From positions 930,001 to 994,000 of the forward strand of contig NZ_CP117267.1 in NCBI RefSeq assembly GCF_007000325.2: a stretch of DNA of 64,000 nt, given 5' to 3'. A model generated the notes under the pieces. That model ran no database searches. It saw only the letters and a list, made by a program, of their open reading frames with translations, and was not told the DNA's origin. Made by a program: the position numbers and the translations under genes. Of this stretch, positions 48,799 through 61,816 are shown piece after piece. Source of the DNA: Rhizobium rhododendri. GTDB lineage: Bacteria; Pseudomonadota; Alphaproteobacteria; Rhizobiales; Rhizobiaceae. Position 1 is the first letter of the stretch. Each line of letters begins with the position of its first letter.

Positions 48799-49262
48799 TC
48801 AAGGCACGATGAGGCCGCCGCGATAGTCGAGTTCATAGGCCGCGCGACCGTCTACGATGATATGCTCGCGCCCGCTGAAATGGGTGCAATCACCGCTACT
48901 CTCGTCCGTGTAGCGACCGAAGTCATGGTCGAACTGCAACCCACCGAGGAACCGCTTCTCCTCGACATACAGATGCCGCAACGCTGCCTTGATGACGCAG
49001 CCCGCCTTCACAGCATCGATCGTGCCGGCTCGATGATCCTCCCGAAATAATTCATCGCCCAGACGGGATCGCCTGATAACCACACCACCTCCTGGCCGGC
49101 AAAATCGGAGCCTCCGAAATAGCTGTCGAGATAACGCCACCGACCGCGCTCGTAACCGGTGTCGTGAGACCCCGGACGACAGGAAGATAGTTTTACCGCA
49201 TCCGCTACATAGGTCTGCGATTTCGCCACGACAATAAAGTCATTCAGCAGCGTCCGATCCAT
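48799..49262 (-). pseudogene. DUF5680-like protein, split by a frameshift
   Basis: Two overlapping minus-strand frames together give one protein of about 154 residues. The N-terminal part (49262 down to about 49008) runs MDRTLLNDFIVVAKSQTYVA to VWAMNYFGRIIEPA. The C-terminal part (from about 49030 down to 48799) runs IDAVKAGCVIKAALRHLYVE to DYRGGLIVP. The reading frame must change by a net -1 base near 49010-49035. AGGGGAG precedes ATG 49262, so the start is real. Either the gene is broken or this is a sequencing error. The family function is unknown. Confidence 0.7.
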
Positions 49263-49369
49263 AACTGCTCCCCTGGATGCATTCCCAGGGTTGCATTTTC
49301 ACGCGGCCATGTAAAGAACAAAATAAGAACAAAGGCATCTGGCTGCAGGCGCTGTAATTGTCCCGGCGC

Positions 49370-49957
49370 TCATTCATCGCGGATGCCACACGCGTCCATG
49401 GCAGTTTGATCCGCCCAGTCGGCAACTGCGACCGTCCTCGCGTCGACTTTGCGTTCCTTGCCACCGCTGCTGACCTTGCCGCTGAGCACATTATAGTCGC
49501 AGGTGCCGCTGTTGTCGGGATCCAGCGTGTCGTGATGGGTGTAAGTGAAGCCGGCAACGACGAACGTCGCGTTGCGATAGGCGATCGTCAGCGTCTGCTC
49601 CCAGCGGTCGCGTCCACCACCGCTGTTTTCCGAATGGACGGAGATCGAGCCGTTAGGCAGCGTCGATATGCCTGCGTCCCTGCCGAACATTCCGTCGAGA
49701 CTGGTATTGCCGGATACCTTGTTCGGTGCTGCTGCGGCGAGATGAAGGAGAAGATGCTCCCTGTCGCGCACGTAGATGTAGATGCCGATGTCGTCGCCAT
49801 CATCCTCAGGGGCAATCAGCAGGGCGAGGTCAGCATTGCCGTCCCTGTTCCAGTCGCCGATCGCAGCTCCGATGATCTTTTCCGGCGCGATATCGCCGGC
49901 AAACGCACTCGACACGCATAAGGCGGCACCGACCAGCGCCAAGGCCAAATTTTTCAT
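49370..49957 (-). CDS. Secreted FG-GAP/VCBS-like protein
   Basis: 195 residues from ATG 49957, which has GGAGGA 7-10 bp upstream. Signal peptide MKNLALALVGAALCVSSAFA, then GDIAPEKIIGAAIGDWNRDGNADLALLI, an FG-GAP calcium-binding-like unit (DWNRDGNAD). The rest is a beta-rich domain ending in a Cys pair (SGTCDYN, DACGIRDE). Probably periplasmic; the role is unknown. It is divergent from the SOS-like peptide gene. Confidence 0.75.
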   Translation of the reverse strand: MKNLALALVGAALCVSSAFAGDIAPEKIIGAAIGDWNRDGNADLALLIAPEDDGDDIGIYIYVRDREHLLLHLAAAAPNKVSGNTSLDGMFGRDAGISTLPNGSISVHSENSGGGRDRWEQTLTIAYRNATFVVAGFTYTHHDTLDPDNSGTCDYNVLSGKVSSGGKERKVDARTVAVADWADQTAMDACGIRDE

Positions 49958-50056
49958 GATCATCTCCTCCACGCACGCTCATAGCATGGCGTCGGTGTAC
50001 GTCCCAGCCATAGGGAATAGCGTAGCAGCATTTGAATCAAGCTCGCTGAAATGCTG

Positions 50057-50085
50057 TTGACAGGTGAATATAAAGGGAACATATA
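50057..50085 (+). promoter_or_regulatory. Promoter of the 28-residue peptide gene
   Basis: A perfect -35 TTGACA (50057-50062), a 17-bp spacer and a -10 CATATA (50080-50085). The predicted start is near 50092. The LexA-type operator at 50077-50091 lies across the -10 box. Confidence 0.75.
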
Positions 50086-50091
50086 AGGAAC
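50077..50091 (+). promoter_or_regulatory. LexA box (SOS operator) over the peptide promoter
   Basis: GAAC-atataag-GAAC, that is GTTC-N7-GTTC on the other strand, the established LexA site of alphaproteobacteria. It overlaps the -10 box exactly as an SOS repressor site should. The same pattern occurs before dinB (61802-61816). Confidence 0.8.
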
Positions 50092-50113
50092 ATAACAACA
50101 CCGGAGAGGCCCA

Positions 50114-50200
50114 ATGACCGATATTATTCGAGACGTCGCCGCTTTCGCCTCCATCGTCATGTTCGTCACCAGCCTGTCGATCATCGTCATGGCGATGTAA
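50114..50200 (+). CDS. 28-residue single-TM peptide, putative SOS-induced (SidA-like)
   Basis: 28 codons starting MTDIIRDVAAF and ending SLSIIVMAM, then TAA. GGAGAGG lies 4 bp before the ATG. Residues 1-8 are polar with balanced charge (D, R, D); residues 9-28 are an unbroken hydrophobic helix (AAFASIVMFV, then TSLSIIVMAM), so a one-pass inner-membrane peptide is predicted. Directly upstream is a LexA-box promoter. Caulobacter SidA, a 29-residue LexA-controlled inner-membrane peptide, blocks division by acting on the late division proteins FtsW/FtsN. Size, topology and control agree; sequence homology is not claimed. dnaE starts 114 bp downstream with no clear terminator between. Confidence 0.7.
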   Translation: MTDIIRDVAAFASIVMFVTSLSIIVMAM

Positions 50201-50243: not shown

Positions 50244-50272
50244 TTGTTCTGGACTTTGCTAACCGCTATGCC
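50244..50272 (+). promoter_or_regulatory. Candidate dnaE promoter
   Basis: TTGTTC (50244-50249), a 17-bp spacer, TATGCC (50267-50272), 43 bp before the dnaE ATG. It would give dnaE SOS-independent expression beside any read-through from the LexA-controlled promoter. Confidence 0.35.
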
Positions 50273-50314
50273 GACAATAGGACCGATTCATTCGGGCATG
50301 CGGAAGGGCTTATC

Positions 50315-53300
50315 ATGGCAGAGGCAACTGACAGGCAGGGCGGACCCTCTGGATCGTCGCCGGAGTTCGTGCATCTGCGTGTGCATTCGGCATATTCGCT
50401 TCTAGAAGGCGCTTTGCCGCTGAAGAAGATCCTCGCCAAGGCTTCAAGCGACAGCCAGCCGGCTCTGGCGATCACCGATACCAACAACCTGTTCATCGCG
50501 CTCGAGTTCTCCCAGAAGGCGATGGACGAGGGTCTGCAGCCGATCATCGGCTGCCAGGTTTCGATCGACATGGAAGACAGTGTCGAGGGCGAGAAGCGCA
50601 ACGGCCAGCAGGGGCTCGCCAAGCTGCCTGCCATCGTGCTTCTGGCGGCCAGCGACGCCGGCTACGAGCGCATGGTCGATCTCGTCAGTCGCGCCTATCT
50701 CGGCGGCGACAATAGTCAGGCCGTGCATGTCAAGGCGTCCTGGCTGGAGGAGATCGGTACCGACGGCCTGATCGCGCTGTCCGGCTCCGTTGGCGGGCCC
50801 GTCGATATCGAAATCAAGGAAGGCCATCCGCAGAAGGCGGTGGCGAGGCTGCTGCGCCTGAAGGCGCTTTTCGGCGACCGGCTCTATGTCGAGTTGCAGC
50901 GCCACGGCACCTATGATCGCCGCCACGAACAACGCATGATTGCACTCGCCTACGAGCACGAACTGCCGTTGGTCGCCACCAACGAGGCCTTCTTTCCGAC
51001 CCGCGACGACTACGATGCCCATGATGCGCTGATGGCTGTCGCCCACAATGCGATCGTCTCGGACGACAGCCGGTTTCGCCTCACGCCGGACCACTATCTG
51101 AAAAGCCGCGCCGAAATGGCAAGGCTGTTTGCCGATCTGCCGGAGGCGCTGGCCAACACCGTCGAGATCGCCGAGCGCTGTGCTTTCGTGCTGCAGACCC
51201 GCAAGCCGATCCTGCCGCGCTTCACCGGCGCCAGCGATGATCCGAAGGAGGCTGAGCGCGCCGAGGCACTCGAATTGCGGGCGCAAGCTGTCGAGGGGCT
51301 CGACCTGCGGCTGGCGACGCTCGGCACGGCGCCGGGCTATGACGAACGGGTCTATCGCGACCGGCTGGAATTCGAACTCGGTGTTATCGAGCGCATGGGT
51401 TTTCCGGGCTACTTCCTGATCGTTGCCGACTTCATCAAGTGGGCGAAGAACGAGGATATCCCGGTCGGTCCCGGGCGCGGATCGGGTGCGGGCTCGCTGG
51501 TGGCCTATGCCCTGACCATCACCGACGTCGACCCTTTGCGTTTCTCGCTGCTGTTCGAACGCTTTCTCAATCCCGATCGTGTGTCGATGCCAGACTTCGA
51601 CATCGACTTCTGCCAGGACCGGCGCGAAGAAGTCATCCGCTACGTCCAGAAGAAATACGGCCGCGAGCAGGTGGCGCAGATCATCACCTTCGGATCCCTG
51701 CAGGCCCGCGCTGCCCTGCGCGACGTCGGCCGCGTGCTGGAAATGCCCTATGGCCAGGTCGACAAGATCTCGAAGCTGGTGCCGAACAACCCGGCCAATC
51801 CGGTGACGCTCGCACAGGCGATCAAGGACGAGCCGCGATTTCAGGAGGAGGCCGAGAAGGAGCCGGTGGTCGCCCGCCTGCTTGACATCGCGCAGAAGCT
51901 GGAGGGTCTTTATCGCCACGCCTCGACCCATGCCGCCGGTATCGTCATCGGCGACCGGCCGCTGTCGAAGCTGGTGCCGATGTACCGCGATCCGCGCTCC
52001 GACATGCCGGTCACCCAGTTCAACATGAAGTGGGTCGAACAGGCGGGCCTCGTCAAGTTCGACTTTCTCGGCCTCAAGACCCTGACGGTGCTGAAGACGG
52101 CAGTCGATTTTGTGAAGCTACGCGGCATCTCGGTCGACCTCGCCACCATTCCGCTTGATGACGCGGTAACCTACGAGAAGCTGGCGCGCGGCGAAACGGT
52201 CGGCATCTTCCAGGTGGAAAGCCAGGGGATGCGCAAGGCGCTGCTCGGCATGCGGCCGGACTGCATCGAGGACATCATCGCACTGGTGGCGCTTTATCGT
52301 CCCGGCCCGATGGAAAATATCCCGACCTACAATGCCCGCAAGCACGGCGAGGAGGAGATCGAGTCGATCCACCCGATGATCGATCACCTTGTCAAGGAAA
52401 CGCAGGGCGTCATCGTCTACCAGGAACAGGTGATGCAGATCGCCCAGGTCCTGTCAGGCTATTCGCTTGGCGAGGCGGATCTTTTGCGCCGCGCCATGGG
52501 CAAGAAGATCAAGGCGGAGATGGACCAGCAGCGCGTTCGCTTCGTCGAAGGTTCGATGAAGAACGGCGTCTCGAAGGTGCAGTCCGACAACATCTTCGAA
52601 CTCTTGGCCAAATTCGCCAATTACGGCTTCAACAAGTCGCATGCCGCCGCCTACGCCATCGTCTCCTACCAAACGGCCTATATGAAGGCCCATTACCCGG
52701 TCGAGTTCCTCGCCGCGTCGATGACGCTGGATATGGCCAACACTGAAAAGGTCAACGATTTCCGCCAGGATGCCAAGCGCCTCGGCATCGAGGTCGTGGC
52801 GCCGTCGGTACAGACTTCTTTCCGCCATTTCCAGACCGGCGACCGAACGATCTTTTATTCGCTGGCTGCCATCAAGGGCGTTGGCGATGCCGCCGTCGAG
52901 CACATCGTCGAGGTGCGTGGCGACAAGCCTTTCGCTAGCATCGAGGATTTCTGCCTGCGCATCGACCCGAAACAAGTCAATCGCCGTGTCCTCGAAAGCC
53001 TGCTCTATGCCGGCGCCTTTGATTGCTTCGGCATCGACCGGGCCCAGCTTCTGGCGGGCATGGAACGGCTGATCGGCTATGCCCAGCTTGCACAGGAAAA
53101 CCGCCGCAGCGGCCAGCATGACATGTTCGGCTCGGGCTCCGCCTCCGGCCCGGAAAAGATTTCCTTCCCGGCCTTCACGCCGTGGCTTGCGTCCGAACGG
53201 CTGCTGAAGGAGTTCCAGGTACTCGGCTTCTATCTCACGGCCCATCCGCTCGATGCCTATAGCGGCGTGCTCGACAAGTTACGGGTGCAGAGCTTTGCGG

Positions 53301-53809
53301 ACTTCTCTGCCGGCATCAAGCACGGCGCCGGCAATGCGCGGCTGGCCGGCACCGTCATCGCCAAGCAGGAGCGCAAGACGCGCACCGGCAACAAGATGGG
53401 GATCTACACATTCTCGGATGCCACCGGGCAGTTCGAGGCTGTCATGTTTTCCGAACTGCTGGCCCAGTACCGCGAAATCCTTGAGGTGGGCAAATCCTTC
53501 GTGCTGACCGCCGCCGCCGAGGAGAGGCCGGAAGGTATCAGCCTGCGGCTGAATTCCGTGCAGTCGCTGGAGGAAAAATCGCTGCAGATGCAGAAGGCCA
53601 TGCGCGTCTTCGTGCGTGATTCAGGCCCGCTGAAGATGGTCGCCGCTCATCTCAACGCCAGGGGCGACGGCTTGGTATCCTTCATCGTCATCAAGGAAGA
53701 CGGCAAGCGAGAGGTCGAAGTCGCACTGCCCAACAAGTATCGCATCTCCCCCGAAATCGCCGCCGCGATGCGCTCCGCACCGGGGGTGATCGACGTCGAA
53801 CTGGTTTGA
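50315..53809 (+). CDS. dnaE: DNA polymerase III subunit alpha
   Basis: An 1164-residue replicative polymerase of DnaE1 type (E. coli 1160). N-terminal PHP domain: FVHLRVHSAYSLLEGALPLKKI at 18-39. The polymerase palm holds GPGRGSGAGSLVAYAL near 387 and the catalytic PDFDIDFCQDRREEVI near 427; the third acidic residue lies in FDFLGLKTL. The helix-hairpin-helix and beta-clamp-binding regions follow, and the C-terminal OB domain is near GTVIAKQERKTRTGNKMGIY (about 1011-1030). The full-length PHP and size argue for DnaE1, not the mutagenic DnaE2. It is convergent with the L,D-transpeptidase gene, 4 bp apart. Confidence 0.96.
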   Translation: MAEATDRQGGPSGSSPEFVHLRVHSAYSLLEGALPLKKILAKASSDSQPALAITDTNNLFIALEFSQKAMDEGLQPIIGCQVSIDMEDSVEGEKRNGQQGLAKLPAIVLLAASDAGYERMVDLVSRAYLGGDNSQAVHVKASWLEEIGTDGLIALSGSVGGPVDIEIKEGHPQKAVARLLRLKALFGDRLYVELQRHGTYDRRHEQRMIALAYEHELPLVATNEAFFPTRDDYDAHDALMAVAHNAIVSDDSRFRLTPDHYLKSRAEMARLFADLPEALANTVEIAERCAFVLQTRKPILPRFTGASDDPKEAERAEALELRAQAVEGLDLRLATLGTAPGYDERVYRDRLEFELGVIERMGFPGYFLIVADFIKWAKNEDIPVGPGRGSGAGSLVAYALTITDVDPLRFSLLFERFLNPDRVSMPDFDIDFCQDRREEVIRYVQKKYGREQVAQIITFGSLQARAALRDVGRVLEMPYGQVDKISKLVPNNPANPVTLAQAIKDEPRFQEEAEKEPVVARLLDIAQKLEGLYRHASTHAAGIVIGDRPLSKLVPMYRDPRSDMPVTQFNMKWVEQAGLVKFDFLGLKTLTVLKTAVDFVKLRGISVDLATIPLDDAVTYEKLARGETVGIFQVESQGMRKALLGMRPDCIEDIIALVALYRPGPMENIPTYNARKHGEEEIESIHPMIDHLVKETQGVIVYQEQVMQIAQVLSGYSLGEADLLRRAMGKKIKAEMDQQRVRFVEGSMKNGVSKVQSDNIFELLAKFANYGFNKSHAAAYAIVSYQTAYMKAHYPVEFLAASMTLDMANTEKVNDFRQDAKRLGIEVVAPSVQTSFRHFQTGDRTIFYSLAAIKGVGDAAVEHIVEVRGDKPFASIEDFCLRIDPKQVNRRVLESLLYAGAFDCFGIDRAQLLAGMERLIGYAQLAQENRRSGQHDMFGSGSASGPEKISFPAFTPWLASERLLKEFQVLGFYLTAHPLDAYSGVLDKLRVQSFADFSAGIKHGAGNARLAGTVIAKQERKTRTGNKMGIYTFSDATGQFEAVMFSELLAQYREILEVGKSFVLTAAAEERPEGISLRLNSVQSLEEKSLQMQKAMRVFVRDSGPLKMVAAHLNARGDGLVSFIVIKEDGKREVEVALPNKYRISPEIAAAMRSAPGVIDVELV

Positions 53810-60500: not shown

Positions 60501-61796
60501 TCAAGACCGCTCCCGCTTGCCGGCGCCAAACGTGTACCCCGTTTCCACCGACGCATCCCCGAACTTGGCCCTGAGCTTGTCCATCGCTGCCTCGGCTGCA
60601 GCCCGGCGGGCGGCGGGTTCGTCCACCAGATCTGGCGGATCGGCGCGGCCGGCGTCGCAGAGGTCGCCGACCCCGATGCCGAGAAGGCGGAATTTCGTGC
60701 CGTCGGTCTCGGCCTCCAGCAGCCTGAGCCCGGTCCGGAAAATCCGGTCGGCCAGTTGTGTCGGGTCTTCGAGCTTGCGGTTGCGGGTGCGGCTCTTGAA
60801 GTCCGCCGTCTTCAGCTTCAGCACCACGGTATGGCCGGCGATGTCGCCCTTCTTCAGGCGTCTCGACACTTTTTCGGAGAGGTTGCGCAGAACAGGCACT
60901 AGGTCGTCATATCGGGAGATATCTTCGAAAAAGGTCGTCTCCGCAGACACGCTCTTGGCCGGGTCGTTCAGATGCACCTCGCGATCGTCTATGCCGCGCG
61001 CCAGCCGGAACAGCCGCTGCCCCATGACGCCGTAGCGGCGCATCAAGGCTCCTTCGTCCATTGCCTGCAACTGGCCGATGGTGCGGATGCCGTCGCCCTC
61101 CAGCGTCGCGGCAAACGCCTTGCCGACACCCCAGATGGTGGTGACGGGACGTGGCGCCAGGAACTCGACTGCCTCCTGTCGGCCAATGATCGAAAAGCCG
61201 CGTGGTTTATTGAGGTCGGAGGCGACCTTGGCGAGGAATTTGCAGTAGGACAGGCCGACCGACACCGTGATGCCGATCTCGGACTGCACCCGCCTGGCAA
61301 ACTTCGCCAGGATACGGGCAGGGCGATCCTGGTGCAGAAGCTGCGTGCCGGCAAGTTCGAGAAAGGCCTCATCGATGGAAAGCGGCTGCACCAGAGGCGT
61401 CAGTTCCTCCATCATCGCCCTGACCTCGCGCCCGACCCGGACATATTTCTCCATGTCCGGGCGAATGACGACCGCGTTGGGACAGGCCTCGAGCGCTTTG
61501 TACATCGGCATGGCCGAACGAACGCCGTGAATGCGGGCGACGTAGCAGCAGGTCGAGACGACGCCGCGCTTGCCGCCGCCGATGATCACAGGCTTGTCTG
61601 CAAGCTCCGGATTGTCGCGCTTTTCGACCGACGCGTAGAAGGCGTCGCAGTCGATATGCGCGAGCGTCAGGTCGTTGAGTTCGCGGTGGTAGACAAGCCT
61701 TGGACTGCCGCACGCACGGCAACGCTTCACGACCGCCGGCTGTTCGCTCAGGCAATCGCGGCAGAAGCCGGGCGTGGTATCAGGCAAGTTGGTCAT
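60501..61796 (-). CDS. dinB: DNA polymerase IV with N-terminal zinc-ribbon-like extension
   Basis: A 431-residue Y-family polymerase (E. coli 351). Residues 1-45 add a Cys4 motif, Cys12-Cys15 (FCRDCLSE) and Cys26-Cys29 (RCRACGSP), likely a zinc ribbon. The palm follows with [20 protein letters not shown] and the catalytic SIDEAFLEL, then fingers, thumb and little finger. It does translesion synthesis. The LexA box at 61802-61816 ends 6 bp before the ATG, so SOS induction is expected. No Shine-Dalgarno is visible in the short leader. Confidence 0.95.
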
Positions 61797-61801
61797 GATG
61801 A

Positions 61802-61816
61802 GAACAAATGTTGAAC
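61802..61816 (-). promoter_or_regulatory. LexA box (SOS operator) of dinB
   Basis: On the plus strand GAAC-aaatgtt-GAAC, i.e. GTTC-N7-GTTC read toward dinB. A promoter TTGAGT-17-TAGAGT can be drawn just upstream on the minus strand, placing the operator at about +1 to +20. Confidence 0.8.

Follow-up and report, generated by a model that had tools for sequence, protein, structure and literature searches.

SOS-controlled division inhibitors with a single membrane helix are a known kind of system. In Caulobacter crescentus, SidA (CCNA_02004; PMC10769358) is a 29-residue inner membrane protein that is induced through LexA and stops division by way of FtsW (PMC4211646; PMC12700426). SidA also touches FtsN (PMC4211646), and the filamentation of a lexA mutant is relieved by deletion of sidA (PMC12700426). 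The Caulobacter protein DidA is likewise a small, damage-induced inner membrane inhibitor of the FtsW/FtsI/FtsN step; however, it has 71 residues, is SOS independent, and binds FtsN (PMC4211646). YneA of Bacillus, SosA of Staphylococcus, and ChiZ of Mycobacterium are damage-induced small membrane division inhibitors of other phyla, with a LysM domain in YneA and ChiZ, and are likened here by description (PMC13396833). The YneA helix contacts TM7 of FtsW, and SidA, SosA, and ChiZ have been modeled on FtsW TM7 with low confidence (PMC13396833). The available parts of the open-licence literature treat SidA as belonging to Caulobacter, and nothing found there mentions relatives from other bacteria. 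In Sinorhizobium meliloti 2011, a translated short ORF, sORF25, lies in the 5'-UTR of dnaE1 and was detected in ordinary growth; its authors raise the possibility that it acts as an upstream ORF (uORF), and the main text mentions none of LexA, SOS, and SidA (PMC10117765).

A locus of this type was examined in a 64-kb window, which here means the whole stretch of DNA that was analyzed (positions 930001 to 994000 of contig 1, in a genome of 5.96 Mb). The initial annotation had described a TTGACA-17-CATATA promoter, a GGAGAGG ribosome site, and a 28-codon ORF encoding one helix, and all of these were confirmed by direct reading. The features of the locus are as follows.

50057-50062, plus strand: -35 element TTGACA of the sidA promoter, read in the sequence
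50066-50091, plus strand: putative LexA operator of three half-sites 11 bp apart (GAAT at 50066, GAAC at 50077, GAAC at 50088), from sequence and conservation
50080-50085, plus strand: putative -10 element CATATA of the sidA promoter, read in the sequence and overlapped by the operator
50103-50109, plus strand: ribosome site GGAGAGG, 4 nt ahead of the ATG, read in the sequence
50114-50200, plus strand: ORF of the proposed sidA ortholog, MTDIIRDVAAFASIVMFVTSLSIIVMAM, 28 codons and a stop, from conservation, selection, and a profile match to Caulobacteraceae peptides
50249-50278, plus strand: probable separate dnaE1 promoter, CTGGAC-N18-GACAAT, from conservation
50315-53809, plus strand: dnaE1, replicative DNA polymerase III alpha subunit (Pfam PHP, DNA_pol3_alpha, DNA_pol3_finger, and HHH_6)

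The spacer between TTGACA and CATATA is 17 nt, the ATG of the ORF is at 50114, the stop codon ends at 50200, and dnaE1 starts 114 nt beyond that stop. The peptide of 28 residues contains a single hydrophobic stretch of about 20 residues, with a hydropathy of 2.3 over 17 residues (Kyte-Doolittle scale). A sigma-70 consensus scan with a fixed rule did not list the promoter at 50057 to 50085, in which CATATA lacks the final T. A terminator-like hairpin at 50182 to 50197 lies inside the coding sequence and was therefore given no weight.

The arrangement is that of Caulobacter SidA: an ORF directly before dnaE1, with a LexA box ahead of it, encoding one membrane helix. The rhizobial peptide has 28 residues versus 29 in SidA, and the two share R6, D/E7, A10, S13, F17, and V18 when aligned start to start without gaps. 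They differ in their low pairwise identity, in the C-terminal half (FVWMM... versus FVTSL...), and in the upstream neighbor, which is a nucleoside hydrolase in Caulobacter; in rhizobia, moreover, the division inhibitor function is a prediction. The Caulobacter gene order was assembled from published locus tags. In the older numbering, dnaE1 is CC1926 and lexA is CC1902 (PMC1839093). Since lexA is also CCNA_01979 (PMC11535069), an offset of 77, dnaE1 should be CCNA_02003, beside sidA, and we infer this identity; CCNA_02005 is an inosine-uridine nucleoside hydrolase (PMC3667746). Genome G1011 shows the order of a divergent nucleoside hydrolase (PF01156, E = 6.2e-79), a box, an ORF of exactly 29 residues behind that box (GAACATCTTGTGAAC), and dnaE1. 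Because this is the gene order of sidA, the 29-residue ORF was taken as SidA. A pilin of G1011 is identical to the Caulobacter PilA sequence used as query, and from this match we take the family of G1011, f115, to be Caulobacteraceae. Thirty f115 genomes were hand-picked from 89, and a SidA-like ORF was found upstream of dnaE1 in 24 of the 30, with a motif that was read off those same peptides and so was not blind. An exact box followed by a hydrophobic ORF, with no motif applied, was present in 13 of the 30, and controls with spacings of 8 and 5 gave 1 and 2 of 30.

Profiles of 27 rhizobial and 13 Caulobacteraceae peptides aligned Met1 to Met1, ungapped, over 21 columns (E = 2.8e-5, probability 74%). 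This score was reached by 1 of 150 class-preserving column shuffles, in which the hydrophobic pattern is kept, and was not reached by the reversed profile. The single SidA peptide scored 5.4 bits against the rhizobial profile; 40 of 2000 free shuffles and 110 of 2000 class-preserving ones reached this value. The ungapped single-pair score with SidA was reached by 414 of 5000 shuffles, a weak match. Because hydrophobic helices align easily, the case for orthology is carried chiefly by place, operator, and length, together with the profile. The likeness to SidA that the initial annotation had proposed is well supported by this comparative evidence, but its term "functional analogue" is too weak, since order, operator, length, and profile point to orthology.

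A protein search found the ORF in 25 of 25 searched genomes of the genus, its own included, and gave weak matches in 2 of 16 other members of the order. At the same-genus loci, the ORF had 28 codons and an exact GAAC-N7-GAAC box lay at -37 to -48 in all 25. A scan of named genomes gave 202 relatives; locus counts are based on the best 80 of these. The nearest named relative among these best 80 of 202, Rhizobium sp. L51/94, has an identical peptide. According to the initial annotation, loss of the ORF from relatives that keep the box would speak against a gene; the ORF was 28 amino acids long in all of the best 80 of 202.

The pattern of substitution is that of a coding sequence. Over 61 distinct DNA versions, dN/dS for the ORF was 0.136, and the variable columns at codon positions 1, 2, and 3 numbered 18, 7, and 27 of 28. 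With 25 sequences, a pN/pS value as low as that observed occurred in 0 of 200 column permutations. Majority-base conservation (best 80 of 202 named relatives) was 0.83 in the operator and 0.85 in the ORF; values for the flanks were 0.38 to 0.47 upstream, 0.56 behind the stop, 0.69 ahead of dnaE1, and 0.74 at the dnaE1 start. All 80 of these loci have TTGAC in the 70 nt ahead of the ORF, and 79 have a Shine-Dalgarno-like run before it. Judged by sequence comparison, the ORF at 50114 to 50200 is a real protein gene under selection. Pfam and NCBIfam searches with six family peptides named no family; the matches, to MrpF-type antiporter subunits and DUF6405, were all below threshold.

The perfect operator pair, GAACATATAAGGAAC, occupies 50077 to 50091 and spans the -10 element. 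GAAC-N7-GAAC was found 3 times in the window versus 1.95 expected, and at least 3 copies occurred in 31 of 100 shuffles. Genome-wide, 163 copies were found versus 120 of the backwards-read pattern, a modest enrichment. The box upstream of the ORF is raised above chance by its conservation: of the best 80 of 202 relatives, 70 have it exactly and all 80 with no more than one mismatch. The three half-sites together match 10 or 11 of 12 letters in 80 of these 80 loci, and random stretches reached 10 in 1 of 80. Most relatives have GAAC-GAAC followed by a third half-site with one change, and the species of the window has GAAT-GAAC-GAAC. Read across these loci, the operator is an array of three half-sites in which the perfect pair has shifted by one half-site and the position of the array is unchanged. 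The GAAC-N7-GAAC pair that the initial annotation placed across the -10 element is present in the window, but it is a variant of the window's lineage, and in most relatives the perfect pair lies one half-site upstream. At Caulobacter sidA loci (L369, 2490 to 2560, and others of the family), near-match boxes such as GAACAAAACCGGAAT occur beside the exact box, and half-site arrays may therefore be general.

The lexA gene of this genome lies at C1:1225655-1225843 (TIGR00498, above the cut-off) and has its own box ahead. Twenty boxes of the genome were examined, hand-picked from 100 listed of the 163. Among these 20, boxes lie ahead of lexA, of uvrA and ssb (one shared box between the two), of an ImuA-like protein (E = 1.1e-15, below the curated cut-off), of comM (ComM/YifB-type ATPase), of a UvrD-like helicase, and of two radical-SAM proteins; others fall within long reading frames and appear to be chance matches. 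The conservation of the box and the presence of the same motif at SOS genes argue strongly that the ORF is under LexA control, as the initial annotation had proposed. One box sequence, GAACATAAAGAGAAC, is present in identical form on two contigs (G000 C1:1053487 and C2:144044), with no recognized long ORF nearby.

The distribution of the locus was examined at the levels of family, order, and class. A family-wide profile search gave matches in 90 of 247 genomes at E <= 1e-3. At loci found by protein similarity alone, an exact box lay upstream in 25 of 28 and 36 of 40. The dnaE1 gene was downstream at 25 of 25 same-genus loci, at 28 of 28 and 37 of 40 family loci, at 16 of 16 boxed order loci, and in all of the best 80 of 202 named relatives (76 by pattern and 4 by reading). 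The family loci with no dnaE1 directly downstream were L145 to L147 of the 40; L148 has dnaE1 at 1.8 kb. Peptides from other families of this order have 28 to 32 residues, or more through an N-terminal extension, and mostly keep the RDxAA[FL] pattern. Twenty-five order-level loci were read, and a box was upstream in 16, including L086, which had supplied a peptide to the query profile. Among the nine unboxed loci, L097 alone is followed by dnaE1 and appears to be a true relative; the remaining eight have no dnaE1 downstream, look like chance, and were rejected. L184 (JAIBEK010000020.1), a MAG labeled Arenimonas, carries a rhizobial sidA locus with dnaE1. Arenimonas is a gammaproteobacterium, and the assignment is probably a binning error.

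A class-wide search of 385 genomes with the peptide profile gave 26 at E <= 0.1, and roughly every second match fell inside a long frame. Because the profile reached almost nothing outside the order, the search was anchored on dnaE1 instead. Matches to DnaE were present in 289 genomes; the class sample was not random but comprised 90 of these from among the high scores, the genome under study included. In 23 of these 90 dnaE1 upstream regions, an exact box was followed by an ORF of 22 to 60 residues with a hydrophobic stretch; by this strict rule, the combination was absent from the other 67. Controls on the same 90 regions gave 3 with the box orientation reversed and 0 with a spacing of 5, 6, or 8 or with CAAG-N7-CAAG, and Markov-sampled sequences gave a mean of 0.02.

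Three other explanations of the locus were weighed. That the ORF is a chance reading frame beside a LexA box serving another transcript is extremely improbable: a single GAAC-N7-GAAC match is expected about twice per window, but a chance frame would not be held at 28 codons in all of the best 80 of 202 relatives, with a dN/dS of 0.136 and 0 of 200 permutations as low. Selection at the amino acid level across the peptide also argues against a role of the ORF as a uORF or leader peptide adjusting dnaE1 expression in cis, with the polymerase as the LexA target and the peptide itself inert. Such a role would fit the presence of dnaE1 downstream in all of the best 80 of 202 and the naming of the S. 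meliloti dnaE1 5'-UTR sORF among possible uORFs (PMC10117765), but it is made very unlikely by five genomes of two genera in which the ORF stands apart from dnaE1. In genus g84, the distance is about 51 kb in G107 and G191 and 422 kb in G253; in genus g101, the ORF lies 8.0 kb (G264) and 1.8 kb (G203) before dnaE1. The box stays with the ORF in four of the four separated loci read (G107, G191, G264, and G203), and a lolC-like coding sequence (lolC assigned by eye) is upstream of the separated ORF in G107, G191, and G264. None of the five separated dnaE1 genes is preceded by the family motif, by an exact box up to 1.5 kb away, or by a hydrophobic short ORF up to 500 nt away. Because the box stays with the split ORF and is absent at the split dnaE1, box and peptide form one unit, of which dnaE1 is the usual neighbor and not the target. 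Also against a leader role are a promoter-like element of dnaE1's own, which is conserved in the genus, and the fact that SidA acts from plasmids (PMC4211646). Among the best 80 of 202 named relatives, 36 carry that element, CTGGAC-N18-GACAAT, in exact form and 78 carry it with at most two mismatches, versus 0 and 1 of 80 in a shuffled control. From these comparisons, the ORF is a gene of its own and not a leader of dnaE1; read-through from the LexA promoter into dnaE1 is possible where the two adjoin. By its position at dnaE1, sORF25 of S. meliloti is probably a direct ortholog, and if it is the same gene, its detection in ordinary growth means that repression may be leaky.

The remaining explanation accepts an SOS-induced peptide but gives it another action. 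Toxins of the TisB/DinQ type are typically controlled by antisense RNA and depolarize the membrane, and the product of the ORF could similarly lower the membrane potential and slow growth, with no divisome target. Its size class and SOS control are those of DinQ and TisB; however, orthology with SidA by place and the profile match to the Caulobacteraceae peptides make this action unlikely. We therefore favor, with considerable confidence, the reading that the ORF is the rhizobial sidA ortholog, held by LexA, induced by damage, and blocking the FtsW/FtsI/FtsN septal wall synthase. As far as sequence can carry it, this reading draws on the gene, its operator, their conservation, the independence from dnaE1, the place, and the kinship with the Caulobacteraceae peptides.

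In this mechanism, LexA in an undamaged cell would occupy the array of three half-sites that overlaps the promoter and repress transcription. Upon DNA damage, RecA would trigger LexA self-cleavage, and the TTGACA promoter would fire. The resulting burst of the 28-residue, single-helix peptide would insert into the inner membrane and hold the FtsW/FtsI/FtsN septal wall synthase inactive, and cells would filament without dividing until repair is complete and LexA returns. Division arrest and contact with FtsW and FtsN are established for Caulobacter SidA (PMC4211646), and an FtsW-family gene is present in the genome studied here. For rhizobia, LexA binding, damage induction, membrane insertion, the target, and division arrest are predicted.

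On balance, we also lean toward a broader proposal, that LexA box, sidA, and dnaE1 constitute an ancestral alphaproteobacterial checkpoint module, in which a fast-evolving one-helix divisome inhibitor has stayed next to the gene of the replicative polymerase across much of the class, rhizobia included, with Caulobacter SidA as the first known case. New, as far as we have seen, are the rhizobial member, SidA orthology by gene order, the class-wide recurrence of LexA box, short ORF, and dnaE1, and the sliding triple operator. Identification by place and not by sequence would give SidA a family across rhizobia and other alphaproteobacteria and explains why similarity searches would miss its relatives. 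The gene is a likely answer to how these bacteria halt division after DNA damage. The translated short ORF in the S. meliloti dnaE1 leader becomes a testable prediction, and the variety in the C-terminal half provides a natural set for mapping the helix residues that contact FtsW. The module proposal would extend to rhizobia, in which control of division also matters for bacteroid formation.

The window contains two further LexA-type boxes. The second, GTTCTTATTTTGTTC, at 49316 to 49330 (minus-strand reading), lies ahead of a minus-strand DUF5680 gene. A DUF5680-like motif was found upstream of sidA on the opposite strand at 54 of 80 loci (best 80 of 202), and in 40 of those 54 it is accompanied by a separate exact box that lies over 80 nt away from the start of sidA. 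The DUF5680 gene thus appears to be a second SOS-type gene at the sidA locus. In the window, this gene (48799-49262, minus strand) is frame-broken, with profile positions 1 to 34 in one frame at 49008 to 49262 and positions 35 to 104 in a different frame at 48799 to 49140. Between the second box and that of sidA, positions 49370 to 49972 (minus strand) encode a 200-residue protein that has a signal peptide-like start and no Pfam match and may be an insertion in the window's lineage. The third box, at 61796 to 61816 (minus strand), is directly ahead of dinB (PF00817, E = 1.3e-45). SOS control of DinB was not seen in Caulobacter (PMC1839093); given the box ahead of it, dinB is probably an SOS gene here.
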